A stretch of 64,000 nucleotides of DNA from Microbacterium sp. oral taxon 186 str. F0373 (GTDB lineage: Bacteria; Actinomycetota; Actinomycetes; Actinomycetales; Microbacteriaceae): the NCBI RefSeq assembly GCF_000411455.1, contig NZ_KE150458.1:124001-188000 (forward strand), read 5' to 3'. Positions within the stretch are counted from its first letter, which is position 1. Every line of letters starts with the position of its first letter. Under the pieces are notes generated by a model. That model worked only from the letters and a program-made list of their open reading frames with translations. It searched no databases and was not told the origin of the DNA. Of this stretch, positions 519 through 63,508 are shown one piece after another. A program made the position numbers and the translations under genes.

Positions 519-529
519 CACATGCACGG
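519..529 (-). promoter_or_regulatory. M1 element (CCGTGCATGTG)
   Basis: Reads CCGTGCATGTG on the minus strand, 6 nt before ATG 512 of the helicase gene. No Shine-Dalgarno sequence separates them. Candidate -10 element of a leaderless promoter. Confidence 0.6.
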
Positions 530-537
530 CGCCGGAG

Positions 538-1146
538 CTACGAGGCGGATCGCTCCATCGCGGCGGTGCAGGCACGCTCGTCCGCCCTCGCGTGGAGGCC
601 TTCGAGCGTGCCGGAGTTATCGATGACCTCGTCGAAGTGGGCGGGCTCGAGGCTCCGCTCGGTCGAATGGGTTCCCGGGGCCGCCTCCATTGAAGGGCGG
701 CTCACCCACAGAGCGGTCCCGCCGAGCTCGCGAACCATTGCGAGCTCGTTCGGGATTCGGATGCCGGTGATGACGACAAGCTGCCCGGCTGCGAGGCGTG
801 CTGCGACACGCTCGCGCATCACGTTCACCCACGTGTCCTCGCCGAAGAACTCGCGGCCGCCTTCGCTGCCGTCCCGCTGCATGTACGCACGGAAGTCGCG
901 GATCGACTTCGCGTCCACGAAGCCGAGGCGGTCCACCAGCCGGGATGCGAGCCGAAAGCCTGGCCAGATTCGGAGGCGGATACCTTCGCGGATACGGACC
1001 TTGATCCACGGGTCGACGGCGAGCATGTGCTCGAGGATCGGATCGCTCATGCCGAGTTTCACGAAGCCGTGGCGGGCGACGAGCCTGTCCGCGTAGGCGT
1101 CCTTCCCGGAGCGGAGCCGACCGCCGAGGGCGATGAGTACGCTCAC
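538..1146 (-). CDS. Deoxynucleoside monophosphate kinase-like P-loop protein
   Basis: 202 residues. GTG 1146 overlaps the stop of the preceding gene (GTGA). The N-terminus has a P-loop (GGRLRSGKD, residues 8-16). The C-terminus has STERSL followed by an IDNSGTLEGL-type segment, seen in phage-type dNMP kinases and dephospho-CoA-kinase-like folds, where the end of the chain closes over the nucleotide. Such enzymes phosphorylate dNMPs to feed replication. It is the fourth gene of a minus-strand chain running from 2964 (nucleotidase, exonuclease, methyltransferase, kinase), which suggests nucleotide-pool control with the neighbouring nucleotidase. Substrate is inferred. Confidence 0.65.
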   Translation of the reverse strand: MSVLIALGGRLRSGKDAYADRLVARHGFVKLGMSDPILEHMLAVDPWIKVRIREGIRLRIWPGFRLASRLVDRLGFVDAKSIRDFRAYMQRDGSEGGREFFGEDTWVNVMRERVAARLAAGQLVVITGIRIPNELAMVRELGGTALWVSRPSMEAAPGTHSTERSLEPAHFDEVIDNSGTLEGLHARADERACTAAMERSAS

Positions 1147-1682
1147 GCGGCGGCGCCTTCCAGAACGAGGCTGGCAGAATGCACGTTGTGCAGCGGCACG
1201 AAGGTGCCGTCCAGACCTGAATCCCGCAGTGCTACAGCTGCCCAGTGCCCATACGCAACGAGGCACGACGGTGCGCCACTGTTGGATGCGGCACGGGTTC
1301 CGTCGGCACGATGGAAGTGCAGCCGCCCGTGGAGAAAAAGGACGCCGGTTGCCTTCTGCCAGACCTCGCGCACGAATCCGGCGGTCTCTGTGCGCGCAAA
1401 GACCAGCGCGACTCCACCGGCCGGGTGGTCGGCGAGCTTGGCCAGCCATGCCGACGTCTGGGCACCGTAGGGCGGGTTCAGCCAGACTCGGTCGCGTGCC
1501 CAATCAGCAGCGAGACCATCAACGGGAAGCTCGATGTGGCGCATCGCTGTTGGCCAGGGGCGGGGTGAGGGGGCCGCGCAGGGGTCTAGGTCGAACACGC
1601 CGATCGCGTCGATAAGTTCGGGCGGGGTGAGCCACGTGGTCGTGTCGGCCGCGGGGGACTGATGTGAACCCATGCCGGTCAC
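1143..1682 (-). CDS. Phage-type DNA N6-adenine methyltransferase (Dam family)
   Basis: 179 residues, the usual size of the phage Dam-type family. WLTPPELI near the N-terminus is typical, followed by FDLDPCA and the catalytic motif NPPY (residues 69-72, in VWLNPPYG). It would methylate adenine N6 in DNA using S-adenosylmethionine, for instance to protect the element from host restriction. GTG 1682 overlaps the exonuclease stop by 4 nt; ATG 1673 is an alternative start. No cognate endonuclease is nearby, so it is probably a solitary methylase. Confidence 0.8.
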   Translation of the reverse strand: MTGMGSHQSPAADTTTWLTPPELIDAIGVFDLDPCAAPSPRPWPTAMRHIELPVDGLAADWARDRVWLNPPYGAQTSAWLAKLADHPAGGVALVFARTETAGFVREVWQKATGVLFLHGRLHFHRADGTRAASNSGAPSCLVAYGHWAAVALRDSGLDGTFVPLHNVHSASLVLEGAAA

Positions 1683-2383
1683 GCAGCGGCCCCGACCTGT
1701 ACTGGCCAGCCGGGATCGACGTTCACGGTGGGGTCGTATCGGCGCAAGTATGCCTGCAAAGATGCGGATTGTTCAGCCCTCCAGCCGACCTGGGCAGCGT
1801 GGAGCTCCATGAGTGACAGGCCGCCGAGATCCGGGTGGGCGAGGAGCTTCTGGACGATCTTGCCGGCAGCGACGGCATCGGCCTTGGCGTTGTGCGCATC
1901 GTCGAGTTCGATGCCGTAGTGCGCAGCGACGGCGGTGAGCTGCCGGCTGCCGCGGCGATACTTGTCCACATGGCGGTCGAGCACGATCGAGTCGAGAACA
2001 GGGTGGCGGAGGGCGCCCGTCTCCGGCCAAGTGCTCGCACTGGAGTCGGCGATGCGACGGTCCTCCTCCGCGAGCACCGTGAGGTCGTACGCGAGGTTGT
2101 GCCCGGCGATAGGCAGCCGCTGGTACGACTCGAACAGGTGGCGCACGCGGGAGAGCGCCACGGCGAGCGGCACGCTGCCCTCCGCCGAGGCCTGCGCGGT
2201 GGTGATGCCGTGGACGGCGGTGGCTTCCGGGGGGATTACGAACCCGTCCGGGCGCACGAGCAGATCGACTTCACGCGAGATCGTGCCGTCCGCGCGCAGG
2301 ATGCCCGCGTACAGGGTGACGATCCGCGCGCTGAAAGCGTCGGGGCCAGTGGTCTCGAGATCGAAGATGATCATTTCGGTCAT
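1679..2383 (-). CDS. DEDDh 3'-5' exonuclease (DnaQ-like)
   Basis: 234 residues. The N-terminal exonuclease fold has all DEDDh residues in order: D8 and E10 (FDLETTG), D100 (HNLAYDL), H164 and D169 (HNAKADA). Homologues remove nucleotides 3'-5' in proofreading or repair. About 60 C-terminal residues beyond the fold (WRAEQ, LRRYDP) resemble the tail common in actinobacterial and phage exonucleases of this group. ATG 2383 overlaps the stop of the upstream nucleotidase gene (ATGA), so the two are probably translated together. Confidence 0.85.
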   Translation of the reverse strand: MTEMIIFDLETTGPDAFSARIVTLYAGILRADGTISREVDLLVRPDGFVIPPEATAVHGITTAQASAEGSVPLAVALSRVRHLFESYQRLPIAGHNLAYDLTVLAEEDRRIADSSASTWPETGALRHPVLDSIVLDRHVDKYRRGSRQLTAVAAHYGIELDDAHNAKADAVAAGKIVQKLLAHPDLGGLSLMELHAAQVGWRAEQSASLQAYLRRYDPTVNVDPGWPVQVGAAA

Positions 2384-2964
2384 GGGAGCTCCCTGATGAG
2401 TTCGAGGACGTCAGCGGCGTTCGTCCACTGACGCAGTCGCGGTCCGGGGATATGGAGGTTGTAGGGGTACTCGCCGTACAGCAGTTGCCGCCACCGGGGC
2501 GTGTAGTAGCCGGTGATGTTCGGCTTATCGTCGATGAGGATGTCGGCGATGAGGGTCGTCTTGTCTTCAACCAGCGCGGTCCGTGATGCGGCCGTCTGCC
2601 CGTGCACGCGCCGCATCCAGGCGAGCTTGTCGCCGGCGGAAGTACGCGAGGTGCGGTAGGGGGTGCTCGCGAACGTGATGTGGTGCCCAAGGCCGGTGAG
2701 CTCACGCAGGACACGGCGGGCGCCGGCGATGGGTGGGAGATCTCCGAAGAAGCCGTCGGCGGTGAAGACAGCTTCGATGATCTTGCCCTGGTGTGGTGTG
2801 AGGCCGGCGCGCATGTCCCAGTTGGCAAACCCACCATCGCGGAACCGTGGCATGCCCGCTGCTTCCTCGCCGCGGGCGTCCAGCTGTAGGTCGAAGGACT
2901 CGGTGAGCGCGGCGATCGTGCAGTCGATGTCGACTGAGATATGGAGTGGGCCGTTGATTCTCAT
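2380..2964 (-). CDS. 5'(3')-deoxyribonucleotidase-like HAD phosphatase
   Basis: 194 residues. It begins with the HAD loop VDIDCT (D12 nucleophile, D14), then FFGDLPPIAGA, a STP segment and a C-terminal ILIDDKP motif. This is the order in the NT5C-type deoxyribonucleotidases that remove phosphate from dNMPs. The family usually has G after D-x-D, where this protein has C. ATG 2964 is chosen, 7 nt after an M1 element; an upstream ATG inside the element (2976) is in frame but less likely. It heads the chain nucleotidase-exonuclease-methylase-kinase. Confidence 0.75.
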   Translation of the reverse strand: MRINGPLHISVDIDCTIAALTESFDLQLDARGEEAAGMPRFRDGGFANWDMRAGLTPHQGKIIEAVFTADGFFGDLPPIAGARRVLRELTGLGHHITFASTPYRTSRTSAGDKLAWMRRVHGQTAASRTALVEDKTTLIADILIDDKPNITGYYTPRWRQLLYGEYPYNLHIPGPRLRQWTNAADVLELIRELP

Positions 2965-2971
2965 CAGCCAC

Positions 2972-2982
2972 CACATGCACGG
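2972..2982 (-). promoter_or_regulatory. M1 element (CCGTGCATGTG)
   Basis: Minus-strand CCGTGCATGTG ending 7 nt before ATG 2964 of the nucleotidase gene. Candidate leaderless promoter for the four-gene chain that follows. Confidence 0.6.
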
Positions 2983-2985
2983 CGC

Positions 2986-3489: not shown

Positions 3490-3527
3490 CAGGCGGCCCG
3501 CCGGGTTGTGTGATGCGTCAGTTCCAT
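3489..3527 (-). CDS. 12-aa leader peptide MELTHHTTRRAA
   Basis: A 12-codon ORF with GGAAGG 7 nt upstream (3535-3540). Its TGA overlaps the ATG of the 167-aa gene by one base. It lies between an M1 element (3563-3573) and the main gene. Two comparable leaders occur at 9828-9854 and 12132-12173. Likely role: translational coupling rather than a functional peptide. Confidence 0.4.
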   Translation of the reverse strand: MELTHHTTRRAA

Positions 3528-3562
3528 GCCATGTCCTTCCGAGTGTGGCTCTCTCTGGACAT

Positions 3563-3573
3563 CACATGCACGG
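3563..3573 (-). promoter_or_regulatory. M1 element (CCGTGCATGTG)
   Basis: Minus-strand copy upstream of the 12-aa leader and the 167-aa gene. The predicted start of transcription 6-7 nt downstream leaves about a 30-nt leader with a Shine-Dalgarno sequence at 3535-3540. The palindrome GACACATGTGTGTC (3580-3593) sits 6 nt further upstream. Confidence 0.55.
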
Positions 3574-3579
3574 CGATCA

Positions 3580-3593
3580 GACACATGTGTGTC
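3580..3593. promoter_or_regulatory. Palindrome GACACATGTGTGTC, possible operator
   Basis: Arms GACACA/TGTGTC with 2-nt spacer, followed by CTATTG. Related sites at 32932-32945 and 56014-56029, and a weak one near 17361, share the arms and the AT-rich flank. It lies where the -35 region of the adjacent M1 promoter would be. Confidence 0.35.
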
Positions 3594-3908: not shown

Positions 3909-3919
3909 CACATGCACGG
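3909..3919 (-). promoter_or_regulatory. M1 element (CCGTGCATGTG)
   Basis: Copy not directly at a start codon: ATG 3881 is 27 nt downstream and has its own Shine-Dalgarno sequence. This supports a transcriptional rather than translational role for the element. Confidence 0.55.
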
Positions 3920-4772: not shown

Positions 4773-6218
4773 TCAGGCGGGCAGGGTGGCCGCGCACTCT
4801 CGGGCTAGCAGGTCAGCCTTCAGCTGTTCGGGCGTCGGTTCTGCTGCTTTCCGAGCGGCCTCGTGGCGGGCGTAGGCCTCCTGGCTGATCTGTCGCAAGC
4901 GTGTAGCCTCGGCGGCGAGCTTCGCAGCACGAGCCTTCGCCTTCTCGTCGCGCCACACCTCGTAGTTGCCGCCCTGGGTCTCGGCTTCGAGCTTCGACAG
5001 CGCTACGGAGTACGCCTGTTGGGCAGCGTGCCACTCGGAACGCGTATCCGGGAGGGAACGCGACAGGTAGTCCCAGGTCGCCTTGGAGATGGGGATGCTG
5101 CCGGAGGGGATCGACACGCTGTACTGCAGGCGCGTGCGGTCTGTCCACGCGGAGAGCCCCTCCACGCCGTCCTCTTCGACGAGCTCGCGGAGAGTCCGCG
5201 TGCGCCCGTCCTGGAGCTTCCAGCGCTTCCCGAGATCGCCCCACACGCGCTCATTGGCGGCCCGGGTCATGACGGGGTCCGCCATGAACTCGTGGAGGCC
5301 TGGCAACGCCACCTTGTGCAGTGTCGGAGCCAGCTCCGGGGCAGCCTTCGGCGCCGGTGGCAGCTGCGCGTGGCGCGTCAGGTCGACCGCGAATCGTCCA
5401 TCGCGTCCCCGATCGCCGTCACGGCGTGACTCGTACTCGGCCTTCGGAATGAGGTACTCGCCCTCGGCGCCGTCGGACTTACGGCGTGCGGTCACGCGCA
5501 CGAGATCGGGGTCAGACTCGGCCTTGCGTGCGGAGGTGACGACGAAGTCCGTCTCGTGAGCCTTCGCCCAGATCAGGATGTCCTTCTGTCTCGACTCGCC
5601 TGGCTCGAGCTCTCGCCCGTTCGCCACCTCCCACTTGTCGGGGAACCGGTCCTTGATCGACTGATCGGAGTCTGCCTGCAACGACTCGGGCGTCCATCGA
5701 TCGCGCTTGTGGGGGAGCGCGGCGAACTCTGCGGGGAAGTATCGGAGCGGGATGTTGATCTCGCAGTCTTCTTCGTACCAGCCGGAGGAGTTGCGCAGGG
5801 GAAGGGGGATCATCTTGTTGCGCCCGGGAGACAGCTTCACACCGCCGTGACCGCTGGTCCCGACGGTGTTGATACCGGGGGCGACCTCGGTGACGGAGTC
5901 CGCTGCACCCCAGGGGGTCCGCGACCCGATCTGGACGCTGTTCTGCCCCCAACGTGCGATCTCGGCGCGATGGGCGGCGGCGTCTGCCGCGAGCTCGCCG
6001 AAGTCAGCAGCGACCGGGCATAGCGCCCCGCTCACGTCGTCGCAGGCCTCGCACTGGAGGTCATCGCCCAACTCTCCGCCGTGCCGCGGGCAGGTGGAAC
6101 GCGCTTCGGCGTCCGCGACGGTCAGGGATCCGCTGGGCGCGCTGTTTGTCTTCTCCCGGAACTGGCCGGCGTTTGTGGCCTGGCCGCGCGGGTGGAGGGT
6201 CTCGTCGAAGGAGGTCAT
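4773..6218 (-). CDS. Tagged protein with DUF7007-like domain
   Basis: 481 residues. Residues 4-28 form the tag (FDETLHPR, GQF, K-x-NSAP). A Cys cluster follows (C-x-RHGG, C-x2-C, C). Then comes a region with WG...PGINTVGTSGHGG and GWYEEDCE, which resembles DUF7007 as found in actinobacterial plasmids and phages. The C-terminal 120 residues are rich in Ala, Glu and Lys and probably form a long helix or coiled coil. Start ATG 6218 is exactly 6 nt after an M3 element; ATG 6227 lies inside the element. Function unknown. Confidence 0.7.
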   Translation of the reverse strand: MTSFDETLHPRGQATNAGQFREKTNSAPSGSLTVADAEARSTCPRHGGELGDDLQCEACDDVSGALCPVAADFGELAADAAAHRAEIARWGQNSVQIGSRTPWGAADSVTEVAPGINTVGTSGHGGVKLSPGRNKMIPLPLRNSSGWYEEDCEINIPLRYFPAEFAALPHKRDRWTPESLQADSDQSIKDRFPDKWEVANGRELEPGESRQKDILIWAKAHETDFVVTSARKAESDPDLVRVTARRKSDGAEGEYLIPKAEYESRRDGDRGRDGRFAVDLTRHAQLPPAPKAAPELAPTLHKVALPGLHEFMADPVMTRAANERVWGDLGKRWKLQDGRTRTLRELVEEDGVEGLSAWTDRTRLQYSVSIPSGSIPISKATWDYLSRSLPDTRSEWHAAQQAYSVALSKLEAETQGGNYEVWRDEKAKARAAKLAAEATRLRQISQEAYARHEAARKAAEPTPEQLKADLLARECAATLPA

Positions 6219-6224: not shown

Positions 6225-6235
6225 CATGAGTGCGG
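6225..6235 (-). promoter_or_regulatory. M3 element (CCGCACTCATG)
   Basis: CCGCACTCATG plus GTGGAC, then ATG 6218. It starts 2 nt after the stop of the RNase H gene. The same design precedes tagged genes at 38683 and 61977. Confidence 0.5.
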
Positions 6236-8474: not shown

Positions 8475-8485
8475 CACATGCACGG
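8475..8485 (-). promoter_or_regulatory. M1 element (CCGTGCATGTG)
   Basis: Minus-strand CCGTGCATGTG, then TGGCGC and ATG 8468. Confidence 0.6.
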
Positions 8486-9861: not shown

Positions 9862-9872
9862 CACATGCACGG
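9862..9872 (-). promoter_or_regulatory. M1 element (CCGTGCATGTG)
   Basis: Minus-strand copy, 7 nt before ATG 9854 of the 8-aa leader that leads into the 164-aa gene. Confidence 0.55.
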
Positions 9873-17461: not shown

Positions 17462-17472
17462 CCGTGCATGTG
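17462..17472 (+). promoter_or_regulatory. M1 element (CCGTGCATGTG)
   Basis: 6 nt (ATGGGT) before ATG 17479 of the Cas4/RecB-like nuclease gene; this fixes the second ATG as the likely start. Confidence 0.6.
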
Positions 17473-17478: not shown

Positions 17479-19515
17479 ATGCCGCCGAAGCGACCCGACT
17501 ACACGATCCCCAACGCCGCATGGTCAGGGCATCACCTGATCTTGGCGGACGAGGAGCTCGTCGACACCAAGATCAGGCGCCCCCTGCTGTCCCCGTCGAT
17601 CGCCGCTGGCTACAACAGCTGCCCCGCGTCCGTCGTTGTCAATCGACTGCAGCCATGGGACGACGATCCGTTCGCAGCGAACACGATGGGCACCGCCGCG
17701 CACTTCGTCATGGAGACGCTGATGAGCCTCCGCCCCGAAGAGCGGACGCTCGAACGTGCGCTGGACATCCTCAAGAAGTCGTCCGATGAGCAGTGGTCGA
17801 TCACGAAGCTCGAGAAGCAGAACAACGACCACTTGCTCGCGAACGCCGAGAACAGGACCCTCTGGCACTCGACGATCGAGAAGTGGATCCGGGCAGTCTT
17901 CCTCATCATCGACCCGCCAACCGTAGAGGTGGAGAGCACCGAGTTCCTTCTCGACAACATCAAGATCGGCAAGGGCGTTGGCGGATCGGAGGGCATCCCG
18001 CTGAAAGGGTACGTCGACCTCACCGAGTGGATTGTCCGCGACGGGCGGCGCGTTCGACTGATCGACGACTGGAAGTTCGGCAAAGCGAAGGTCAAGGTCA
18101 ACCCACGTTACGGCGACGATTACGGCGATCAGCAGCGGATCTACTACGCGGGTTACGCCGAGTCGACGGGTGAGATGCCTGCAGGCGCACGGCTCATCTT
18201 TCCCCGCGGCATCGTCGACATCGACGCTGACCCCTCGCAGATGAGTCAGAGGCAGCGTGAGTCACTGACCATCCGCAACATCGACGTGTCGCCGAACGAG
18301 ATGCGGAAGACGCTCCTCGGCTTCCGTGCCGGCTGGAACACGATGAACGAGTCTGCCGATCGGCGTTCATTCGAAGCGCGGCCCTCTGGGCTGTGCGGCT
18401 GGTGCCCGGCCGCGAACTCGTGCCCGGTCGCGAAGCTGCCCAACCAGAAGGCGCTGGATGCCGCGAAGGGGCAGCCGTCCGCATTGCAGCTGGGCATCCC
18501 GACACTGCGTCCCGGGGCCTCACTGCAGGAAGTACGCGATGCGCCCGGCGTCACTGTTCCGTTGTCTCGAGAGCCCGACTTCGACACGACCATCGAGCCG
18601 GCGGGCGACGACATGTTCCCCATCACGCTCCTGGAAGACGGAGAGACGGAGGAGTCGGTGCGCGCGGACGCTTCCCCGGCGCCAGCGGCGTCCGTTACCG
18701 GCCCTGAGCTGTCCGCAGACGAGCCGCCATTCGATCCGTTCGAGGACCCGCCATTCGATCCGTTCTACATCGAACCGCAGCCGGATCCCATCGAAGCAGT
18801 CATCCCCGACGAAATCGTGCCCGAACCGGTCGCCGAGACCGCTGAGATCTCGGCGGTCGTCAACGCCATGCTCACCACCACCGGAGCGTCGGTCAGCGCC
18901 GATGATCCCTTCGCGGCGGAGTGGTTCCGCGCCGTGCATGTGGGAGCGGAAGGCACATCCAATACCGAAGGAGACCAGACCACCATGAACGAGAATCACT
19001 CGGAGCACCGCCTCGACGTGAAGCCCGAAGCTGCGCCTTACGAGGCGGAGATCAACGGGATGCTCAACCTCAACTCCTACAGTGCCATCGCCGTCTCCGG
19101 CATCGTCGCACTGGCGTTCGAGCACATGCGTTCTCAGGACGTCCGCGTGAGCCCCGTCTCACTGAACAGGTTCTCTCAGGTGCTCGCCGGCATCGTCCTT
19201 CGCGTGCAGAAGCAGACGACCGGCTTCCAGAACTTCCAGTCCGGTGCGAACACCCGCCTTCGCGGGTTTCTGCGCATGGCGATCGAGGCGTTCCCGGCTC
19301 CGTTCCGCGTCCGCGCCGCGGATGGAACCGCCCTCATCCCGGCAACCCTGCAGGACTGGCAGCAGTGGACCGGCCGCATCGAAAACCTCCTCAGCGTGTC
19401 GATCATCACCGCGGTCGACCTCTACGACTCGGCCGCAGAATCGCTGAACTCGTCGCCCGAGGCGTTCTTCGCCGCCGGCGGCGAGGGGGCGCCCACGGTC
19501 CTCGTCACCAACTGA
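17479..19515 (+). CDS. Cas4/RecB-like PD-(D/E)XK nuclease with long C-terminal extension
   Basis: 678 residues. Residues 40-320 contain the nuclease: H75 in GTAAH, D180 in GYVD, the D-x-K pair D197/K199 in LIDDWK and Q218/Q219. C48 together with C306, C309 and C315 form the four-Cys Fe-S signature of Cas4/AddB-type nucleases. No cas1, cas2 or CRISPR repeat is near, so a replication or recombination role is more likely. Residues 340-490 are acidic and Pro-rich, with a repeated PPFDPF. The last 176 residues look like a separate protein fused in frame; see the internal start at 18985. Confidence 0.8.
   Translation: MPPKRPDYTIPNAAWSGHHLILADEELVDTKIRRPLLSPSIAAGYNSCPASVVVNRLQPWDDDPFAANTMGTAAHFVMETLMSLRPEERTLERALDILKKSSDEQWSITKLEKQNNDHLLANAENRTLWHSTIEKWIRAVFLIIDPPTVEVESTEFLLDNIKIGKGVGGSEGIPLKGYVDLTEWIVRDGRRVRLIDDWKFGKAKVKVNPRYGDDYGDQQRIYYAGYAESTGEMPAGARLIFPRGIVDIDADPSQMSQRQRESLTIRNIDVSPNEMRKTLLGFRAGWNTMNESADRRSFEARPSGLCGWCPAANSCPVAKLPNQKALDAAKGQPSALQLGIPTLRPGASLQEVRDAPGVTVPLSREPDFDTTIEPAGDDMFPITLLEDGETEESVRADASPAPAASVTGPELSADEPPFDPFEDPPFDPFYIEPQPDPIEAVIPDEIVPEPVAETAEISAVVNAMLTTTGASVSADDPFAAEWFRAVHVGAEGTSNTEGDQTTMNENHSEHRLDVKPEAAPYEAEINGMLNLNSYSAIAVSGIVALAFEHMRSQDVRVSPVSLNRFSQVLAGIVLRVQKQTTGFQNFQSGANTRLRGFLRMAIEAFPAPFRVRAADGTALIPATLQDWQQWTGRIENLLSVSIITAVDLYDSAAESLNSSPEAFFAAGGEGAPTVLVTN
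18932..18942 (+). promoter_or_regulatory. M1 element inside a coding region
   Basis: CCGTGCATGTG within the nuclease reading frame, about 42 nt before internal ATG 18985, which has AAGGAG upstream. It would drive separate expression of the C-terminal part. Confidence 0.5.
18985..19515 (+). CDS. Internal in-frame gene, C-terminal 176-aa protein
   Basis: Same frame as the nuclease ORF. ATG 18985 has AAGGAG (18967-18972) 12 nt upstream, after a GAAGGAGA context, and follows an M1 element. The sequence (NGMLNLNSYSAIAVSGIVALAFEHM, written in parts) is helical and not recognised. It is followed 29 nt later by the 207-aa gene. Separate translation is inferred from the signals; a simple fusion is the alternative. 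Confidence 0.5.
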   Translation: MNENHSEHRLDVKPEAAPYEAEINGMLNLNSYSAIAVSGIVALAFEHMRSQDVRVSPVSLNRFSQVLAGIVLRVQKQTTGFQNFQSGANTRLRGFLRMAIEAFPAPFRVRAADGTALIPATLQDWQQWTGRIENLLSVSIITAVDLYDSAAESLNSSPEAFFAAGGEGAPTVLVTN

Positions 19516-28230: not shown

Positions 28231-28241
28231 CACATGCACGG
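28231..28241 (-). promoter_or_regulatory. M1 element (CCGTGCATGTG)
   Basis: 33 nt before ATG 28197, which has its own Shine-Dalgarno sequence; transcription from about 28224 would give a leader of about 27 nt. Confidence 0.55.
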
Positions 28242-31064: not shown

Positions 31065-31952
31065 TCACGCCGCCAGTGCGACGGTCGTGTTCATGATGGT
31101 CTCGAACTCGATGGGCGTCAAACGGCCCAGGCGGGCCTGCCGTCGTCGGCGGTGGTAGGTGCGCTCGATCCAGGTCACCATCGCGATGCGCAGCTGCTCG
31201 CGGGTGGTCCAGGGGCGGCGGTCGAGGACGTTCTTCTGAAGCAGCGCGAAGAACGATTCCATGGCGGCGTTGTCGCCGCTCGACCCGACTCTTCCCATGC
31301 TCCCGACCATGCGGTGTCGGCTGAGGGCGCGGAGCATCTTCCGGCTGCGGAATTGAGATCCCCTGTCCGAATGCACGACGCAGCCGGCGACGTCGCCGCG
31401 CATCAGGGCGGCGTTCTCGAGCGCCTGGACGACCAGACGGGACTTCATCCTCGAGTCGATCGAGTACCCCACGATCCGGCCGGAGTAGACGTCCTTGATC
31501 GCGCAGAGGTAGAGCTTGCCCTCGGCGGTCTTGTGCTCGGTGATATCCGTCAACCAGAGCTGGTTCGGGGCGTCGGCGGTGAACACGTGCCGGGTTCGGC
31601 CGTGCTCGTCGATGACGGCGCAGCGGTCGTCGTGGACGGGCGGGCCGGGCCGGCGGGCCTTGCTCCGCTTGGGCTTGCCGAACGCGCTGAACCAGCCGTT
31701 GCTGGAGGCGATCCGCCACGCGGTCCGGTCCGCCATCGCCTCCCCGTTGTCGCGGGCCTCGTCGGCGAGGAGCCGATGGCCGAACTCGGGGTCGTCCTGG
31801 TGGGCGTCGAACAGCGCGTTCGCGCGATACGCCTCGACCACCTCACTTGGGGTGATGGGGTTCGTCAGCCACCGGTAGTAGGGCTGGCGGGAGAGCTTGA
31901 GCACCCGACACGTCACCGTCACAGGGATCCCTGCGTCGGCGAGCTCGCTCAC
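31065..31952 (-). CDS. IS3-family transposase OrfB (DDE)
   Basis: 295 residues. The DDE catalytic triad is visible: D in LWLTDITEH, D in VVHSDRGSQF and E in DNAAMESFFALL, in the rve integrase core. It has a GTG start overlapping the orfA stop. Ahead of the overlap is GGGAAAAGG, a plausible -1 slippage site, so the active enzyme is probably an OrfAB fusion made by frameshifting. Confidence 0.9.
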   Translation of the reverse strand: MSELADAGIPVTVTCRVLKLSRQPYYRWLTNPITPSEVVEAYRANALFDAHQDDPEFGHRLLADEARDNGEAMADRTAWRIASSNGWFSAFGKPKRSKARRPGPPVHDDRCAVIDEHGRTRHVFTADAPNQLWLTDITEHKTAEGKLYLCAIKDVYSGRIVGYSIDSRMKSRLVVQALENAALMRGDVAGCVVHSDRGSQFRSRKMLRALSRHRMVGSMGRVGSSGDNAAMESFFALLQKNVLDRRPWTTREQLRIAMVTWIERTYHRRRRQARLGRLTPIEFETIMNTTVALAA

Positions 31953-32257
31953 GAGCGGGTAGAGCCTTTTCCCGGCAGGTTCGCCTGCGACAGATACGCC
32001 GCCGCGCGGCGGAGGACCTCGTTCTCCTGCTCGAGCAGACGGTTCCGCTTCTTCAGCTCACGGATCTCCGCCGCCTCGGTCCGGGACTGGCCGGGCTTCG
32101 CACCTGCGTCGATGTCGGCGCGACGCATCCACTTCTGCAGCGTCATCGGGTGAACACCGAAGTCTTTCGCGATCTGCTCGATCGTCACTCCGGGCTCACG
32201 GTTACTCGCGACGCGCACGACGTCGTCACGGAACTCGGACGGGTAGGGCTTGGGCAC
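31949..32257 (-). CDS. IS3-family transposase OrfA (HTH)
   Basis: 102 residues. An HTH segment (VTIEQIAKDFGVHPMTLQKW, about 24-44) binds the inverted repeats. A leucine-zipper-like helix (ELKKRNRLLEQENEVL) mediates multimerisation. The GTG 32257 start follows GGAAGG. OrfB overlaps its stop in the -1 frame. Confidence 0.85.
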   Translation of the reverse strand: MPKPYPSEFRDDVVRVASNREPGVTIEQIAKDFGVHPMTLQKWMRRADIDAGAKPGQSRTEAAEIRELKKRNRLLEQENEVLRRAAAYLSQANLPGKGSTRS

Positions 32258-33683: not shown

Positions 33684-35674
<1,991 letters not shown>

Positions 35675-37717: not shown

Positions 37718-37728
37718 CACATGCACGG
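37718..37728 (-). promoter_or_regulatory. M1 element, left half of a divergent pair
   Basis: 9 nt before ATG 37708. With the copy at 37738-37748 it makes a 31-bp near-perfect inverted repeat. Confidence 0.55.
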
Positions 37729-37737
37729 CGCTCCATG

Positions 37738-37748
37738 CCGTGCATGTG
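37738..37748 (+). promoter_or_regulatory. M1 element, right half of a divergent pair
   Basis: 6 nt before ATG 37755 of the 36-aa membrane protein. Confidence 0.55.
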
Positions 37749-37865: not shown

Positions 37866-38106
37866 TCACCATCGCGCGGTCTGGGCCTCCGATGAACGAT
37901 GCCTGTGGTTGTCGATGCCGTTGAGTCGCAGTTCGAAGACACGACGAATTGAACCGGCGTATGTGGGCAAGCAAGTGTCCTATCTGTCAGCGGATGATGC
38001 GGGGTTGGAGATCGACACCGTGAACGCTCCAACGGTTCTGTCGGTGCAGTTGCAGGGTCGTGATGACGCTGCAACTGCGGTTGGGAATGCTGTGCATGTG
38101 GGAGCC
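37866..38106 (+). other. Short gap with a possible N-terminal extension
   Basis: Between the 36-aa gene and the 77-aa gene, one frame stays open from GTG 37909/ATG 37915 through the M1 element into the 77-aa gene. This would give about 141 residues (SYLSADDAGLEIDTVNAP). There is no Shine-Dalgarno sequence before it. A 20-aa ORF from about 37958 with CPIC also overlaps. None is convincing. Confidence 0.3.
38090..38100 (+). promoter_or_regulatory. M1 element (CTGTGCATGTG)
   Basis: One-base variant, 6 nt (GGAGCC) before ATG 38107. Confidence 0.55.
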
Positions 38107-39082: not shown

Positions 39083-39943
39083 TTATGCCGCGATGGCGGC
39101 GTGATGGGTGTTCTCGAACTCGAGTGGTGAGACGTCGCCGATGCCGGAGTGGCGGCGTTTCGGGTTGTACCAGGCCTCGATCCATTCGAAGATCGCCTGC
39201 CCCAGTTCGTCTCGGCTCTGCCAAGCCTGCTGGTCGAAGAGTTCGCGTTGCATCGTCGACCAGAACGACTCCATAAGGCCGTTGTCAACGCTGGACGCGA
39301 CCCGGCCCATCGATCCGAGCAGCCCTGCTTGACGGAGCCGGTGCCCGAACACCCACGAGGTGTATTGGGATCCGCGGTCCGAATGCACCACCGTGCCAGG
39401 CTCGGGTTTGCGTCGCCACCTCGCCATATCAAGCGCGTCGACGACGAGCTCCGCCCGGATGTGATCGGCGATCGCCCACCCGACCACGCGGCGGGAGAAC
39501 ACGTCCACGACGGCCGCGCAATAGACCTTCCCGGTCCTCGTCGGATGTTCCGTGATGTCCGTGACCCAGAGCTTGTCCGGGCGGTCCGCGACGAACTGGC
39601 GTTTCACGAGATCCTCGTGCGGGGCCGGCAGCGGGCGATTCTTCCCGCGTTTGCGGCGGTGGCTGATCCCCGCGATCCCGGCCCGGCGCATCAGCCGGGC
39701 CACCCGCTTCTTTCCGCATCGGATCTGCAACCCGAGCCGCAGCTCCGCGTGCACGCGCCTCGCGCCGTAGCTGGTTCGAGATTCTCGGTGAATGCGGATG
39801 ATCGTGACCGTCAGCTCCTCGTCGACGCGTGCTCGCTCCGAGGGAAGGCGACTCTTCCACGCATAGAACCCCGACCGCGAGACCCGCAGGACCCGGCAGG
39901 CAAGGGCCGCGTCGATCCCGGTGGCCACGAGGTGCTCGATCAC
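39083..39943 (-). CDS. IS3-family transposase OrfB (DDE)
   Basis: 286 residues with the DDE triad in KLWVTDITEH, VVHSDRGSQY and DNGLMESFWS. It has a HTH_21-type N-terminal region (RVSRSGFYAWKSR). The GTG 39943 start overlaps the orfA stop. CCCAAAAGGG just before the overlap is a plausible -1 slippage site for an OrfAB fusion. Confidence 0.9.
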   Translation of the reverse strand: MIEHLVATGIDAALACRVLRVSRSGFYAWKSRLPSERARVDEELTVTIIRIHRESRTSYGARRVHAELRLGLQIRCGKKRVARLMRRAGIAGISHRRKRGKNRPLPAPHEDLVKRQFVADRPDKLWVTDITEHPTRTGKVYCAAVVDVFSRRVVGWAIADHIRAELVVDALDMARWRRKPEPGTVVHSDRGSQYTSWVFGHRLRQAGLLGSMGRVASSVDNGLMESFWSTMQRELFDQQAWQSRDELGQAIFEWIEAWYNPKRRHSGIGDVSPLEFENTHHAAIAA

Positions 39944-40239
39944 CGGGAAGACCCTTTTGGGCCGACCACCTCCCGAGCGAAGTACGCCGACGCCTGCCGG
40001 AGGATCTCGATCTCCGCAGCCTGAACCCGGTTCTCGCGTCGCAGCCGCACCAGCTCGGCCCGTTCGTCCGAGGTCACGCCTTCCTGGACGCCCTCGTCGA
40101 CATCGGCGATCTTCATCCATCGGCGCAGACACGACTCGCTGATTCCCAGATCGGCCGCGAGCTGCGCAATCGGCTTTTCCTTGGACCGCGCGAGCGCGAC
40201 TGCCCTCCGACGAAACTCCACCGGGTGAGCTACAGGCAT
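39940..40239 (-). CDS. IS3-family transposase OrfA (HTH)
   Basis: 99 residues. HTH segment (IAQLAADLGISESCLRRW) and a helical zipper (RRENRVQAAEIEILR). Overlaps orfB in the -1 frame. Confidence 0.85.
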   Translation of the reverse strand: MPVAHPVEFRRRAVALARSKEKPIAQLAADLGISESCLRRWMKIADVDEGVQEGVTSDERAELVRLRRENRVQAAEIEILRQASAYFAREVVGPKGSSR

Positions 40240-40682: not shown

Positions 40683-40693
40683 CCGTGCATGTG
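40683..40693 (+). promoter_or_regulatory. M1 element (CCGTGCATGTG)
   Basis: 6 nt (GAGGGC) before ATG 40700. Confidence 0.6.
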
Positions 40694-42442: not shown

Positions 42443-42590
42443 ACGAGAGATGCTCTATCTGCTGACCGCGCTAGACCGCCGTGCCGCGAGGGACGCTCGC
42501 GGACAGGTGGGGGCGGGCGGAGCGCGTGCAGTACCCGGGTATCCCTTACGCCGACACCGTGCATGTGTTCCTCATGAGGACTACCGATGA
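42432..42590 (+). CDS. Hypothetical protein, 52 aa
   Basis: ATG 42432 overlaps the end of the zinc-ribbon gene by 11 nt. Helical N-terminus (REMLYLLTALDRRAARDA), then an Arg/Gly tail that overlaps the next gene by 17 nt. Weakly supported. Confidence 0.35.
   Translation: MTTEREMLYLLTALDRRAARDARGQVGAGGARAVPGYPLRRHRACVPHEDYR
42557..42567 (+). promoter_or_regulatory. M1 element (CCGTGCATGTG)
   Basis: 6 nt (TTCCTC) before ATG 42574. Confidence 0.6.
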
Positions 42591-44868: not shown

Positions 44869-44879
44869 CTGTGCATGTG
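44869..44879 (+). promoter_or_regulatory. M1 element (CTGTGCATGTG)
   Basis: 6 nt (CAGCTC) before ATG 44886. Confidence 0.55.
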
Positions 44880-45732: not shown

Positions 45733-45743
45733 CCGTGCATGTG
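45733..45743 (+). promoter_or_regulatory. M1 element (CCGTGCATGTG)
   Basis: 6 nt (AGCATC) before ATG 45750. Confidence 0.6.
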
Positions 45744-47505: not shown

Positions 47506-47516
47506 CCGTGCATGTG
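47506..47516 (+). promoter_or_regulatory. M1 element (CCGTGCATGTG)
   Basis: 6 nt (GAGGGT) before ATG 47523. Confidence 0.6.
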
Positions 47517-48014: not shown

Positions 48015-48218
48015 GTGGGCGTCATCGGGCGGCTGCACAAGGAGAAGCGGTACGCGAACCGACGCCAGTGGTTCGCCGTCTGCACGGGCGATGCCACCGA
48101 GGCGTTCGAGCCCTGCTACTGGGAGAGCAGCATCGAATTCGGTCAGCGAGACGCCGCGACCGAACTCGTCGCGCACTTTCGCCGCACCCACGCTCGGACC
48201 GCGCCACCGTGCATGTGA
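48015..48218 (+). CDS. Hypothetical protein, 67 aa
   Basis: The frame is open from 47960, but no good start is visible; GTG 48015 is the best. Contains HKEKRYANRRQWF and a Cys pair (CTGDAT, PCYWES). Its stop TGA lies inside the next M1 element (48207-48217). Confidence 0.4.
   Translation: MGVIGRLHKEKRYANRRQWFAVCTGDATEAFEPCYWESSIEFGQRDAATELVAHFRRTHARTAPPCM
48207..48217 (+). promoter_or_regulatory. M1 element (CCGTGCATGTG)
   Basis: 6 nt (AGGGGC) before ATG 48224; it also holds the last codons of the preceding gene. Confidence 0.6.
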
Positions 48219-48732: not shown

Positions 48733-48743
48733 CCGTGCATGTG
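48733..48743 (+). promoter_or_regulatory. M1 element (CCGTGCATGTG)
   Basis: 6 nt (GGAGAC) before ATG 48750; begins right after the preceding stop. Confidence 0.6.
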
Positions 48744-50638: not shown

Positions 50639-50649
50639 CTGTGCATGTG
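50639..50649 (+). promoter_or_regulatory. M1 element (CTGTGCATGTG)
   Basis: 6 nt (GGGACC) before ATG 50656. Confidence 0.55.
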
Positions 50650-52420: not shown

Positions 52421-52431
52421 CCGTGCATGTG
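52421..52431 (+). promoter_or_regulatory. M1 element (CCGTGCATGTG)
   Basis: 6 nt (GACGGC) before ATG 52438. Confidence 0.6.
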
Positions 52432-53949: not shown

Positions 53950-53960
53950 CCGTGCATGTG
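53950..53960 (+). promoter_or_regulatory. M1 element with leader and Shine-Dalgarno
   Basis: The next gene starts 27 nt downstream at ATG 53988 with AGAAAGG before it. Transcription starting 6 nt after the element would leave a leader of about 21 nt. Confidence 0.55.
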
Positions 53961-56361: not shown

Positions 56362-56372
56362 CCGTGCATGTG
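56362..56372 (+). promoter_or_regulatory. M1 element (CCGTGCATGTG)
   Basis: 6 nt (GCCCTC) before ATG 56379. Confidence 0.6.
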
Positions 56373-57623: not shown

Positions 57624-57634
57624 CCGTGCATGTG
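57624..57634 (+). promoter_or_regulatory. M1 element upstream of abiE
   Basis: About 66 nt before ATG 57701; a leader starting near 57641 would include the inverted repeat and a strong Shine-Dalgarno sequence. Confidence 0.5.
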
Positions 57635-59195: not shown

Positions 59196-59206
59196 CCGTG
59201 CATGTG
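59196..59206 (+). promoter_or_regulatory. M1 element (CCGTGCATGTG)
   Basis: 6 nt (TGAAGC) before ATG 59213; immediately follows abiE. Confidence 0.6.
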
Positions 59207-60178: not shown

Positions 60179-60189
60179 CCGTGCATGTG
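60179..60189 (+). promoter_or_regulatory. M1 element (CCGTGCATGTG)
   Basis: 6 nt (GGGGTC) before ATG 60196. Confidence 0.6.
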
Positions 60190-60195
60190 GGGGTC

Positions 60196-61168: not shown

Positions 61169-61283
61169 GGAACCCAGAGTGACGAGCCGCTCGCTCCCGA
61201 CCTCACCGATCCGTCTCGGCTTCGCGTCGCCGTCGTGAGCGCTAGGCGGCAAGCGTCCGGCGTTCTCCCGACTTGGTTGCCCG

Positions 61284-61294
61284 CCGTGCATGTG
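61284..61294 (+). promoter_or_regulatory. M1 element with short leader
   Basis: 20 nt before ATG 61315; AGAAGGG lies between, so the mRNA has a leader of about 14 nt. Confidence 0.55.
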
Positions 61295-61314
61295 GTGTTC
61301 AGAAGGGATCGATA

Positions 61315-61692
61315 ATGAGCGAGAAGAACAGCTATGTCGTCGTCAGCGTGAAGCTGCCGGTCGATATTTATCAGGTGCTGGACCGCAAGGCCAAGGCAAG
61401 TGACATCTCCGTCGGTGCGCTTCTGAGCGCGTTCATCGTCGCTTCGATCAAGGCCTCGCTCGGCGACGCGGCGAAGTTTGTCGTGCGCACCATCCACCCG
61501 AAGCGTGTGCGTCAGGAAGGCCGTCGCGCCTACGTGCGCGTGCGCGATGAGGATGTTCCCGAGATGCGCGCAATGGTCCAGGAGAAGGCATCTCCGGATC
61601 GGATCGCTGAGCGTTTCGGCATCTCCCGAGCCTCGGCGCTGAACTGGCGACGCAAGATCCTCGACGAGGATCAGCTCACAGACGCTGCGTGA
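61315..61692 (+). CDS. Ribbon-helix-helix plus HTH regulator
   Basis: 125 residues. The N-terminus (VVVSVKLPVDIYQVLDRKAK, then VGALLSAFIVASIKASL) has RHH layout. A C-terminal HTH (PDRIAERFGISRASALNWRR, about 98-117) follows. A double DNA-binding protein of this size could control the element, perhaps through M1-type sites or the palindromes. That link is speculation. AGAAGG before the ATG. Confidence 0.65.
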   Translation: MSEKNSYVVVSVKLPVDIYQVLDRKAKASDISVGALLSAFIVASIKASLGDAAKFVVRTIHPKRVRQEGRRAYVRVRDEDVPEMRAMVQEKASPDRIAERFGISRASALNWRRKILDEDQLTDAA

Positions 61693-61955
61693 TGGCTGCC
61701 GTCGAGCACATCACCATCGACGGTATCGCCGTCTCCTGGTACTGCACGTCTTGCCTCCGGGAGCTCGGCGCCGAGGATGCGACTGGTGTCGATGATCCTC
61801 TCGGGCAGCCGTGCGATGCGTGCCCGCATTGCGGTTCCGACGCGATCGCCTGGGAGCCCTGGTCCGGACAGGTCAAGGACGGCCGCTATCTCCCTGACGG
61901 CTCGGACGGGCTGCCGGCGGTCGAATGGCGAAACGCAGAACCGTGGGGCGACTGA
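61692..61955 (+). CDS. Zinc-ribbon protein, 87 aa
   Basis: WYCTSCLREL and QPCDACPHCGSD give a four-Cys zinc ribbon. ATG shares a base with the RHH-HTH stop, so they are coupled. GTG 61689 is an alternative. Confidence 0.6.
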   Translation: MAAVEHITIDGIAVSWYCTSCLRELGAEDATGVDDPLGQPCDACPHCGSDAIAWEPWSGQVKDGRYLPDGSDGLPAVEWRNAEPWGD

Positions 61956-61959
61956 ACTG

Positions 61960-61970
61960 CCGCACTCATG
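61960..61970 (+). promoter_or_regulatory. M3 element (CCGCACTCATG)
   Basis: CCGCACTCATG, GTGAGC, then ATG 61977 of a tagged gene. Confidence 0.5.
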
Positions 61971-61976
61971 GTGAGC

Positions 61977-62699
61977 ATGAGCATTTTCGATGAGGCCCTC
62001 CACCCCCGGCTAGCCACGGGCGAGTTCACGGCGAAGCGCAACAGCGCTCCGGACTGTCAGCTCATGGACGACATCATGGGCCCCGACGCTATCGTCGGGA
62101 ACTACGTCAACGCCGATCGACTTGTCGGTGCTGCAGGTGTCGTAGAGGTCGACGCGGGCGCGTTCACTGGCGGCGAGGTGAAGGACGCGCGGGCTCTCCA
62201 AGAGGGTGAGAGGCTTCTGTGGCGCTCAGTCACCGACGACGGTGAGCGATACTTCGCCGAGACGGTCACGCACGTGCAGGCTGGAATCAACGACAAGTAC
62301 CAGCGGGTCGTGATCGTGGAAACCGCCCGCCTGCCCGGAGGAAACAGACACCTTGAGTTCCGCAGCTCGCAGACCGTCGGTGTCCTCGCGGACAGGGAGG
62401 AGCCCGTCCCGTTTCCGCAGCTCCGCTTCGGGCACACGCCCGAGGAGCTCACCGTTGAGGTGGAGTCTTCCGACAGCCACGGCTCGACAATCGTGCTCCG
62501 CAAGAACGGCACCACCACTGCACTCGACCGGTTCCGAATTGCGAGCAGGCTTCGTCCGGGCGCGATCCCGCTGATCGAGAGCAGCCGCGACATCCAGGAG
62601 CTGGTCGCGAACCGCTTCATCCCGCTCGCAGGGTTGAGCCTTGACGAAACCCTCGCGCGGGAACCGGCCGGACACGGCGGCCGAGCCTGGAACGACTAG
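61977..62699 (+). CDS. Tagged hypothetical protein (HPR...NSAP N-terminus), 240 aa
   Basis: Residues 4-26 carry the tag (FDEALHPR, GEF, K-x-NSAP). The rest is beta-rich and acidic (LRFGHTPEELTVEVESS) with no family recognised. Start ATG 61977 is exactly 6 nt after M3; ATG in the element is disregarded. A terminator is downstream. Confidence 0.7.
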   Translation: MSIFDEALHPRLATGEFTAKRNSAPDCQLMDDIMGPDAIVGNYVNADRLVGAAGVVEVDAGAFTGGEVKDARALQEGERLLWRSVTDDGERYFAETVTHVQAGINDKYQRVVIVETARLPGGNRHLEFRSSQTVGVLADREEPVPFPQLRFGHTPEELTVEVESSDSHGSTIVLRKNGTTTALDRFRIASRLRPGAIPLIESSRDIQELVANRFIPLAGLSLDETLAREPAGHGGRAWND

Positions 62700-62814
62700 C
62701 CGCCCTCCCCCTCCACCGGTGCGCTCCCACCGACGGGCTGAGGCCCGCTTCTCGACCTGCGCTACAGGTTCATCCCTTTGGCGGATTCCACTCGGGTGTA
62801 CGGCCACTAGCTTG

Positions 62815-62842
62815 AGCGATGCGGGGGAGTCCCCGCATCGCT
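62815..62842 (+). terminator. Hairpin terminator
   Basis: Perfect 12-bp stem AGCGATGCGGGG/CCCCGCATCGCT, loop GAGT; no T-run. Ends the transcript of the tagged gene. 62700-62814 shows no gene. Confidence 0.65.
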
Positions 62843-62904
62843 TGCGAATGTGAGCCTCACGCAGATCCATCCTGGCGGCGTTCGCACCGGAGAAGGGACC
62901 GCTC

Positions 62905-63384
62905 GTGCGCATCAGCTTTGGAAAGAGGCTCACCCTCGGTGCACTCGCCGCCGCGCTATTCGTCGGAGCGAGCGCTCTGCCGGCGTCCGCGACGTCCGGG
63001 ACGGGGTTCGACAACACCAACCCCGCTGCCGGGCCTGACTACTGTGCCACCGGCTCCGTACCGATCAAGACCGTGAATCTGTACGCCAACGGGGTCGGAC
63101 CTCTCGTGGGGTACATGGAAGTGCGCTACTCCTCGAAATGCGGGACGAACTGGGTGCGCGTCTACAACATCAACACTCCGGATGCCAGGAGCCAGACCTA
63201 CATCCAACGGCCCGCGCAGGGCTCACTCCCGGCTTCCGTACCAATCACCAGCGACAACGTCTTCCCGGGCGGCTGGGCCTACGGGTACCAGCTGTACGCC
63301 GCCGGCTCGACGTGCATCAACGTCCAGGGGCGACTGTCCGCCAGTGCCTTCACCGCCGACTCAGGAGTGATCTATCTCTGCTGA
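62905..63384 (+). CDS. Secreted protein of DUF2690-like type
   Basis: 159 residues. N-terminal signal peptide (SFGKRLTLGALAAALFVGAS, ending in ASA near residue 28). The mature part has YCATGSVPIKTV, a GYMEVRYSSKCGTNWVRVY segment and Cys at the end (CINVQ, YLC), resembling actinobacterial secreted DUF2690 proteins. GTG start at 62905 with GAAGGGA 6 nt upstream. It has its own start region after the terminator. Confidence 0.7.
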   Translation: MRISFGKRLTLGALAAALFVGASALPASATSGTGFDNTNPAAGPDYCATGSVPIKTVNLYANGVGPLVGYMEVRYSSKCGTNWVRVYNINTPDARSQTYIQRPAQGSLPASVPITSDNVFPGGWAYGYQLYAAGSTCINVQGRLSASAFTADSGVIYLC

Positions 63385-63497
63385 GACGTGTTCCCCGGCG
63401 TGCCCGCACGGATCTGTCTCGGCACCGCACATCTCACCAGCATCCATGCGAGCGGAGACGCGGACCTGACTCGACGGGAACGCGATACGCGGACGGA

Positions 63498-63508
63498 CCG
63501 TGCATGTG
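63498..63508 (+). promoter_or_regulatory. M1 element (CCGTGCATGTG)
   Basis: 6 nt (TGAAGC) before ATG 63515. Confidence 0.6.

Follow-up and report, generated by a model that had tools for sequence, protein, structure and literature searches.

The sequence analysed here, referred to as the window, is a 64-kb stretch of the 3.17-Mb, seven-contig genome of Microbacterium sp. oral taxon 186 str. F0373 (contig NZ_KE150458.1; C2:124001-188000), in which a short DNA motif recurs at a fixed distance before ATG codons. The window lies in a region of contig C2, from ~116 kb to ~327 kb, where the G+C content drops from ~0.70 to 0.65, and the motif is found across the same stretch. A 38-bp direct repeat at C2 116192 and 326516 is located within a tRNA-Lys(ctt) gene (L014 16155-16230 = C2 116155-116230), and the region is therefore an integrated element of about 210 kb. 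A gene judged by eye to be integrase-like adjoins this tRNA gene. The element codes for a DNA polymerase III alpha subunit, an NAD-dependent ligase, SNF2-type and UvrD-type helicases, FtsK-type ATPases and a protein with a weak AAA_10 match, and it harbours 26 tRNA genes in a single array (L017:3600-8039). We called 261 genes in the element with an open reading frame (ORF) scorer of our own, not a standard caller.

A previous, sequence-only reading of the window had reported 28 copies of the motif, 20 on the plus and 8 on the minus strand, most of them ending exactly 6 nt before an ATG. Our searches recovered the same set: 25 copies are exact matches to CCGTGCATGTG, and three are the CTG variant CTGTGCATGTG (Table 1). 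The 6-nt spacing is exact in 18 of the 28; two further copies have an ATG at spacing 7, one at spacing 9, and seven have no near ATG. With one mismatch allowed, the window contains 29 copies, the extra one being CCGTGGATGTG at 22909, against 2.2 expected and a maximum of 7 in 100 shuffles. Scans of the window for Rfam families and tRNAs gave no matches. In the element as a whole, there are 64 copies, hereafter called class A, which are unevenly spread, compared with three in the other ~2.96 Mb of the genome; the enrichment is thus restricted to the element. Of these 64 copies, 42 have an ATG at spacing 6 (chance 1.2% per copy; binomial p = 2.6e-64), one has a GTG there and five have an ATG at spacing 7. 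Sixty of the 64 lie outside any other called gene. The motif is thus not equally common inside genes or at random positions. At two places, motif copies form divergent pairs on opposite strands, ~9 and ~20 nt apart (window 37718-37748 and window-relative 71912-71953).

We aligned the 64 copies, with the core 11-mer at -17 to -7. The alignment begins with a purine at -18 (63 copies), a C and then C or T (54 and 10 copies), followed by GTGCATGTG and a G-rich stretch; the core extended by its preceding purine is RCYGTGCATGTG (-18 to -7). A pyrimidine occupies -1 in 56 of 64 copies, and a purine +1 in 62. The earlier statement that the motif does not resemble TANNNT holds, as all 64 copies have CATGTG at -12 to -7 (letters fixed by the choice of motif). 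The absence of a shared -35 element had also been described correctly for this element: over the 64 copies, no position from -77 to -19 rises above 0.15 bit.

A word at a fixed distance from start codons might be a translation signal, such as a non-canonical ribosome-binding site or an RNA element. The 6-nt spacing would also suit a Shine-Dalgarno (SD) sequence, and the copies with an ATG mostly have no SD of their own (our test detected one in 4 of 47). Were the position dictated by the start codon, nothing would be expected at +1 in copies that lack it. Yet, among the 22 of 64 copies without an ATG at spacing 6, C or T is found at -1 in 15 and A or G at +1 in 20, and a looser scan linked 20 of the 22 to a called gene. 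When all spacings of 5-7 are considered, 17 copies lack an ATG; every one of these has a purine at +1 and 12 have a pyrimidine at -1, and seven of them are followed by an SD and a start codon 19-100 nt from the motif start, versus 4 of the 47 ATG copies and 9% of 2000 random places. The purines at +1 and the separate SD and downstream start in non-ATG copies therefore argue for a promoter element rather than a translation signal, and the -35 box of related plasmids described below stays in place with or without an ATG; we regard a translation signal as very improbable. Another view is that the GTG within CCGTGCATGTG is the start codon and that the motif encodes a conserved N-terminus, MHVxxM. 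This GTG is in frame with the ATG, and our own ORF caller chose it at many copies. However, at four of the 42 copies with a spacing-6 ATG it cannot be the start codon, because an in-frame stop comes before the ATG; in the relatives, moreover, the place is conserved but the codons are not. We give a coding origin of the motif next to no weight.

Genes 205 and 228 of the element code for divergent sigma-like proteins (families A1 and A2; Table 1), which were first picked by eye among the element proteins and then tested, as described below. tblastn searches with these two proteins gave eight records for gene 205 and five for gene 228 and led to plasmids of 375-608 kb in Curtobacterium, Arthrobacter, Pseudarthrobacter and Paenarthrobacter. 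Seven of them, obtained from PLSDB (pACHL01, pPA-B-2242, pYJN5-1, pCPAA3, D40 and two further Arthrobacter plasmids), were taken further as W01-W07, and profile and blastp searches found both families encoded on all seven. W02 and W03 were read whole and the others in part (450 of 608 kb for W01, 400 of 567 for W07, 400 of 427 for W05, 400.0 of 400.6 for W06 and 400 of 440 for W04). There is a core gene set common to the family: 45 of the 261 called genes match at least four relatives, and 29 match at least six (E <= 1e-4, mostly 25-50% identity; six plasmids largely read and 3.7 kb of the seventh). Three plasmids were annotated in detail, and all three retain the gene order ParA-like, 207, 206, 205, which in D40 is interrupted by a WhiB gene. 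Thus, the giant plasmids share core genes and the promoter slot with the element, but they are circular records of 375-608 kb, whereas the element is ~210 kb long, is integrated at tRNA-Lys and has other promoter letters. PLSDB lists a 102-bp 'NDM-19' prediction on a Curtobacterium plasmid (L036:39657-39758), which we think is spurious given that length.

We searched the relatives for words enriched at a fixed distance before ATG codons. A word in the same slot was found in each of W01-W07, in the genome G656 and in a Leifsonia contig: CCGCACACATAG in W03 and W06, CCGYACACAT in W02, W04 and W05, CCGCGCATAG in W01 and W07, CCGCACATCTA in G656 and CCGCRCATGT in Leifsonia Leaf264. Nothing comparable was present in 110 kb of host chromosome. 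Explicit words were used for the two Curtobacterium plasmids, on which a fixed-position expectation-maximization search fell to background. The slot words have in common CCG at -17 to -15, then Y, R, C at -12, A at -11, Y at -10 and mostly T at -8. In addition, the five Arthrobacter-group plasmids have a -35 box, CGGKGAG, at -38 to -32; within each set, 90-100% of the copies have G at -37, and 79-96% have A at -33. This box is equally strong whether an ATG is present at spacing 5-7 (366 copies) or absent (315 copies). The non-ATG copies of these five plasmids have a purine at +1 in 300 of 315 cases, and an SD followed by a start codon in 140 of 315, compared with 21 of 366 ATG copies. Purines at +1 likewise prevail in the copies without an ATG in Leifsonia (18/18) and Curtobacterium (42/45 and 32/33). 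This comparison with relatives supports the earlier proposal of a leaderless promoter element at -17 to -7, which is the best reading of the motif. In G656 stretches L178-L188, TTCAACCA occurs repeatedly ~44-51 nt before ATG codons, with GAACATG at the -10 slot.

Orthologous genes also tend to keep a motif. Where the element gene has a motif, the relative has its own in 29 of 65 gene-plasmid pairs, compared with 20 of 198 where the element gene has none (Fisher p = 7e-9); the table contains several pairs per gene, relaxed words and stretches of unequal length, and some matches are due to chance. Examples, each in at least one plasmid, are genes 13, 131, 149, 201, 216, 223 and 243. Putative promoter locations tend to be retained at orthologous genes more than expected, even though their letters have changed.

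The letters of the element itself are rare elsewhere. Across 398 genomes of the family, 11 have the spaced motif, and apart from this genome each has a single copy; no second element with the same letters was therefore found among these 398 genomes. With a generic pattern applied to 396 genomes of the order, this genome gave 41 matches (control 2) and G656 gave 37 (control 3), the next highest count being 12. Both have a full-length relative of gene 205, a family with any match in 13 genomes of the order and full-length matches in six. Judged on these counts, the link between gene 205 and the motif holds for close relatives. The A. terrae genome has 120 generic matches versus 4 in controls, and an 80-kb stretch of an A. 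terrae contig showed no positional enrichment. Scanning Viral_contigs gave no match for the gene 228 family and one for the gene 205 family, which is the Curtobacterium sequence again.

The sequence-only reading overlooked a second promoter class in the same window, represented by two copies (Table 1). When class A was masked, the same positional search of the element yielded GCCGCACTCATG at the same distance from ATG, with 10 exact copies in the element and three elsewhere in the genome. Within one mismatch, there are 16 copies of this class B in the element, 11 of which precede genes for proteins with a common N-terminal tag. All 11 copies of CCGYACTCATG with an ATG 16-17 nt from the first base lie before tagged genes, compared with one of 42 class A copies (ATG at spacing 6-7, frame of at least 40 codons; p = 1.6e-10). 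The element's class B was derived from positional enrichment, and the tag was not used.

The tag reads HPRGQAxNAGQFxxKxNDAP in the element and RQPxGIPxGGQFAxxxHxE in the Arthrobacter-group plasmids. By pattern, it is present on 20 of the 261 called proteins, which otherwise differ from one another (genes 2, 5, 6, 16, 17, 100, 107, 152, 153, 156, 157, 164-166, 169, 172, 199, 211, 218 and 235). Among the carriers of the tag are an ArdC-type protein (PF08401), a GmrSD N-domain protein, AbiEii and the gene 228 protein itself. The tag has no Pfam match of its own among the tagged proteins scanned, and a comparison of the tag peptide with phage records found none. In the Arthrobacter-group plasmids, the genes behind class B are tagged in 15/25 (W03), 25/32 (W06), 15/26 (W02), 19/22 (W05) and 8/11 (W04) cases, versus 1/60, 1/70, 2/76, 6/82 and 9/67, respectively, for the comparison counts; the class B pattern used there, CCGYACACA followed by a non-T, was set after viewing tagged genes, and the association is thus partly circular. 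These class B copies are devoid of the -35 box of class A. The classes are poorly separated in G656 and the two Curtobacterium plasmids (p 0.065, 0.029 and 0.023). Gene 228 homologues have a class-B-like word upstream in five of six plasmids by pattern and, by eye, in the sixth, W07 (CCGCATACAT).

The presence of two -10 types, one of them with that -35 box, and of two sigma-like families therefore suggests two sigma factors and two regulons. A further idea is that class B is a delivery regulon, in which the N-terminal tag would mark the products for transfer together with the DNA, the two leaderless regulons being served by two private sigma factors. An ArdC-type anti-restriction protein would then be among the products transferred, and in the relatives the tagged gene 228 protein would arrive in the recipient and activate the plasmid promoters at once. 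ArdC has been proposed to be co-transferred, and the related TraC1 shown to be (PMC8744291). We regard this delivery scheme as speculative and rather unlikely.

We then consider the proteins that might read these promoters. Searches of the genome with the Sigma70_r2 and Sigma70_r4 families gave no match in the element at E <= 0.001. The best PDB sequence match of the gene 205 family profile is the sigma-28 factor FliA (E = 2e-4). The A. terrae member matches sigma70-ECF (extracytoplasmic function) at 0.0095 over residues 37-261, and the Curtobacterium member matches Sigma70_r3 at 0.0038; bit scores of gene 205 relatives are 15.6 for TIGR02937 (cut-off 42.9) and 17.7 and 20.1 for Sigma70_r3 (cut-off 25.3). 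An AlphaFold model of the A. terrae member, with a predicted local distance difference test score (pLDDT) of 76, is made up of helices, with positions 171-193 forming a disordered linker and a helix-turn-helix (HTH) at the C-terminus. In two comparisons of this model with the PDB, the best 50 matches listed in each are all sigma factors or RNA polymerases by title, and its putative sigma-2 part fits SigI6 at 2.5 A over 91 residues. As for the gene 228 family, all three members scanned match NCBIfam sigma-70 models (Sig-70_gvs1, TIGR02989, at 6e-5 as the best, FecI at 3e-4 and SigW at 9e-4), and four of six members scanned match Pfam Sigma70_r2 at E 3e-4 to 0.025, with its 24-bit cut-off unreached. 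PDB profile matches of this family to sigma factors are non-significant (0.15 and weaker). In hmmsearch runs with a set of five, the gene 228 profile matches two host ECF region-2 stretches (E = 3e-4 and 1e-3), and the gene 205 profile matches one host ECF stretch at 0.02. Both families thus appear as divergent sigma-like proteins, with a likeness that is weak but repeated, and of the three agents named earlier (a dedicated sigma factor, an activator or an element-specific adaptation of RNA polymerase), the first is best supported by their occurrence in the element and its relatives.

There is no motif copy beside the start of the ParA-205 operon in the element, as expected if the sigma factor is first made from another promoter. 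Two inverted repeats are seen by eye upstream of this operon (L020:10645-10821), TGTTATGTGGCA...TGCCACATAACA and ATTCTTGTCAGA...TCTGACAAGAAT; autoregulation or a terminator is possible. By eye, CGCATAG is located near the presumed operon start in W01, W03, W05, W06 and W07, and it is also enriched before ATG codons in G653; it may be a third promoter class.

Taken together, we consider it likely that the family of plasmids has a private, largely leaderless promoter system of two classes, read by plasmid-encoded sigma factors. The extended core RCYGTGCATGTG would serve as the -10 region of promoters proper to the mobile element rather than to its host. RNA polymerase carrying an element-encoded factor of the sigma-70 type would melt the 11-mer and begin transcription at a purine ~6 nt further on. 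For most copies, the A of the ATG would be this purine, giving a leaderless mRNA; at a minority, transcription would start at the same distance from the motif, followed by a leader, often with an SD. The element belongs, in integrated form, to a Micrococcales family that comprises plasmids of 375-608 kb as well as integrated elements, and most lineages have their own letters. At least two classes would exist, class A (RCYGTGCATGTG) for general use and class B (CCGYACTCATG) for tagged-protein genes, and class A is probably part of a two-sigma system. Two regulons are likely, given two classes and the two divergent sigma-like proteins of genes 205 and 228. What we infer is the use of the motif sites as starts of transcription, sigma activity of either protein and the assignment of the two proteins to the two classes.

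A number of observations weigh against this explanation. In the element itself the promoters do not have two boxes, as the -35 box is absent. Both protein families stay below the curated sigma cut-offs; within the element, Pfam gives no match for gene 205 at E <= 5, and gene 228 matches Mycobacteriophage_Gp53 (5e-6, 26.6/27 bits) better than Sigma70_r2 (0.025). The structural model was built from four sequences, has a predicted template modelling score (pTM) of 0.41 and represents a homologue only ~1/4 identical to gene 205; its Foldseek template modelling (TM) scores are 0.2-0.3, with a whole-chain root-mean-square deviation > 18 A and a best E of 1.6e-3 (none < 1e-3), and VIA Z values of up to 10.8 are not decisive for helical bundles. 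In four of the six genomes with full-length gene 205 relatives (G653, G591, G421 and G688), the generic pattern is not in excess; near the same place before ATG codons, G653 shows another word, CGCATAGG, and 72 kb of G421 yielded none. G656 has a weak purine signal at +1 (23/36 with ATG, 4/8 without), and no leadered copy there was found to have an SD (0/8). Finally, the element's own gene 228 lies behind CCGTGCGTATG, which is an exact member of neither class. A host sigma factor helped by an element-encoded activator, repressor or appropriation factor, possibly the gene 205 or gene 228 protein, with the 11-mer as its binding site at -10, would yield much of the same pattern. The missing cut-offs, the lack of a Pfam match for gene 205 and the missing -35 box of the element would all suit such a factor, as would the annotation of gene 205 relatives as 'HTH domain-containing' or hypothetical and the fact that the A. 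terrae member scores better against HTH models (HTH_11 4e-5) than against sigma models. However, the letters are fixed at -18 to -7, precisely where a sigma factor must melt DNA, and TANNNT is excluded there; the -35 box at canonical distance in five relatives has the look of a two-box sigma promoter; and the gene 205 family is matched best by sigma-28 in sequence profile and by sigma chains in fold. We thus hold a host sigma factor with an accessory protein to be unlikely. A one-block promoter read by a single-subunit, T7-like or other private RNA polymerase would account for a single block at -18 to -7 without a -35 box, which is the T7-type layout. No candidate polymerase was found among the 40 element proteins scanned against Pfam (of 261 called; one of the 40 partial), and five relatives do have a -35 box. 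A PF00940 search was empty, but so were its controls, which makes it uninformative. We see very little chance that such an enzyme is involved.

Mobile elements with their own sigma factors are already known, and each ingredient of the proposed system has known counterparts. The leaderless sigma-A promoters of actinobacteria have a TANNNT -10. As in the element, their -10 lies ~6 nt before the ATG, the expected start is on the A or G of the start codon, and there is no SD; in contrast, the -10 letters of the element are fixed, differ from TANNNT, are limited to one mobile element and vary among its relatives. Sigma factors of the ECF and sigma-28 types resemble the candidate proteins in their predicted sigma-2-like and C-terminal HTH parts, and the -35 box of five relatives is another likeness. 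Unlike those systems, the candidates score below all scanned sigma cut-offs, the -10 block spans 11-12 bp with CCG at -17, and the element is devoid of a -35. Phage sigma systems, e.g. T4 gp55 and SPO1 gp28, provide a mobile element with its own sigma factor and short private promoters, a situation similar to the one proposed here with candidate sigma factors; the differences are that we deal with a plasmid family, with dozens of mostly leaderless class A promoters and with a second class. The start-associated sequences (SAS) of cluster K mycobacteriophages, which contain a ribosome-binding site, are likewise repeated words at a fixed distance before start codons, but the motif described here contains no such site, and its leadered copies have a separate SD. 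Among the titles and abstract openings that our literature searches returned, none dealt with this class of promoter or with the sigma factors of these plasmids.

Table 1. Copies of class A and class B in the window, class B genes and candidate sigma genes of the element. Positions are those of the window unless an L number is given; leaderless and leadered starts are predicted.
Feature	Position	Strand	Start codon	Remarks
Class A core	519..529	-	ATG 512	leaderless
Class A core	2972..2982	-	ATG 2964	spacing 7
Class A core	3563..3573	-		no ATG at spacing 5-7, no SD by the test used
Class A core	3909..3919	-	ATG 3881	leader + SD
Class A core	8475..8485	-	ATG 8468	leaderless
Class A core	9862..9872	-	ATG 9854	spacing 7
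Class A core	17462..17472	+	ATG 17479	leaderless
Class A core	18932..18942	+	ATG 18985	leader + SD; within longer called ORF
Class A core	28231..28241	-	ATG 28197	leader + SD
Class A core	37718..37728	-	ATG 37708	spacing 9; diverges from core 37738..37748
Class A core	37738..37748	+	ATG 37755	frame of just 36 codons; overlaps opposite-strand called gene
Class A core, CTG variant	38090..38100	+	ATG 38107	leaderless
Class A core	40683..40693	+	ATG 40700	leaderless
Class A core	42557..42567	+	ATG 42574	leaderless
Class A core, CTG variant	44869..44879	+	ATG 44886	overlaps opposite-strand called gene
Class A core	45733..45743	+	ATG 45750	leaderless
Class A core	47506..47516	+	ATG 47523	leaderless
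Class A core	48207..48217	+	ATG 48224	leaderless
Class A core	48733..48743	+	ATG 48750	leaderless
Class A core, CTG variant	50639..50649	+	ATG 50656	leaderless
Class A core	52421..52431	+	ATG 52438	leaderless
Class A core	53950..53960	+	ATG 53988	leader + SD
Class A core	56362..56372	+	ATG 56379	leaderless
Class A core	57624..57634	+	ATG 57701	leader + SD
Class A core	59196..59206	+	ATG 59213	leaderless; in-frame TGA between motif GTG and ATG
Class A core	60179..60189	+	ATG 60196	leaderless
Class A core	61284..61294	+	ATG 61315	leader + SD
Class A core	63498..63508	+	ATG 63515	leaderless; in-frame TGA between GTG and ATG
Class B core CCGCACTCATG	6225..6235	-	ATG 6218	leaderless; before tagged protein (HPRGQATNAGQF; DUF7007)
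Class B core CCGCACTCATG	61960..61970	+	ATG 61977	leaderless; before tagged protein (HPRLATGEF)
Class B gene	4773..6218	-		tagged protein, DUF7007 domain
Class B gene	61977..62699	+		tagged protein, no Pfam match at E <= 1
Gene 205	L020:6291-7148	minus		divergent sigma-like (family A1)
Gene 228	L021:11996-13033	plus		divergent sigma-like (family A2)

Other features of the element include insertion sequences, at window positions 31065-32257, 33684-35461 and 39083-40239 and also in L016, L017, L018 and L020. Some proteins also occur as two identical copies (genes 41/42 and 136/135, 160/161 and 214/213, 119 and 167). Seven pilin-like proteins have MANPFL near their start (genes 158, 159, 181, 182, 242, 251 and 255), and a type II secretion F-like gene is found in the same element.

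If the proposed system is real, plasmids and integrated elements of several Micrococcales genera would have a plasmid-wide transcription programme apart from that of the host. The relatives would represent a natural series in which both the sigma-like proteins and the promoter letters have changed, offering material for a comparative study of sigma-DNA recognition. For dozens of genes, the likely start codon would be the ATG, not the GTG internal to the motif. Lastly, class B points to a regulon of tagged proteins, and the transfer of proteins together with DNA would become directly testable.

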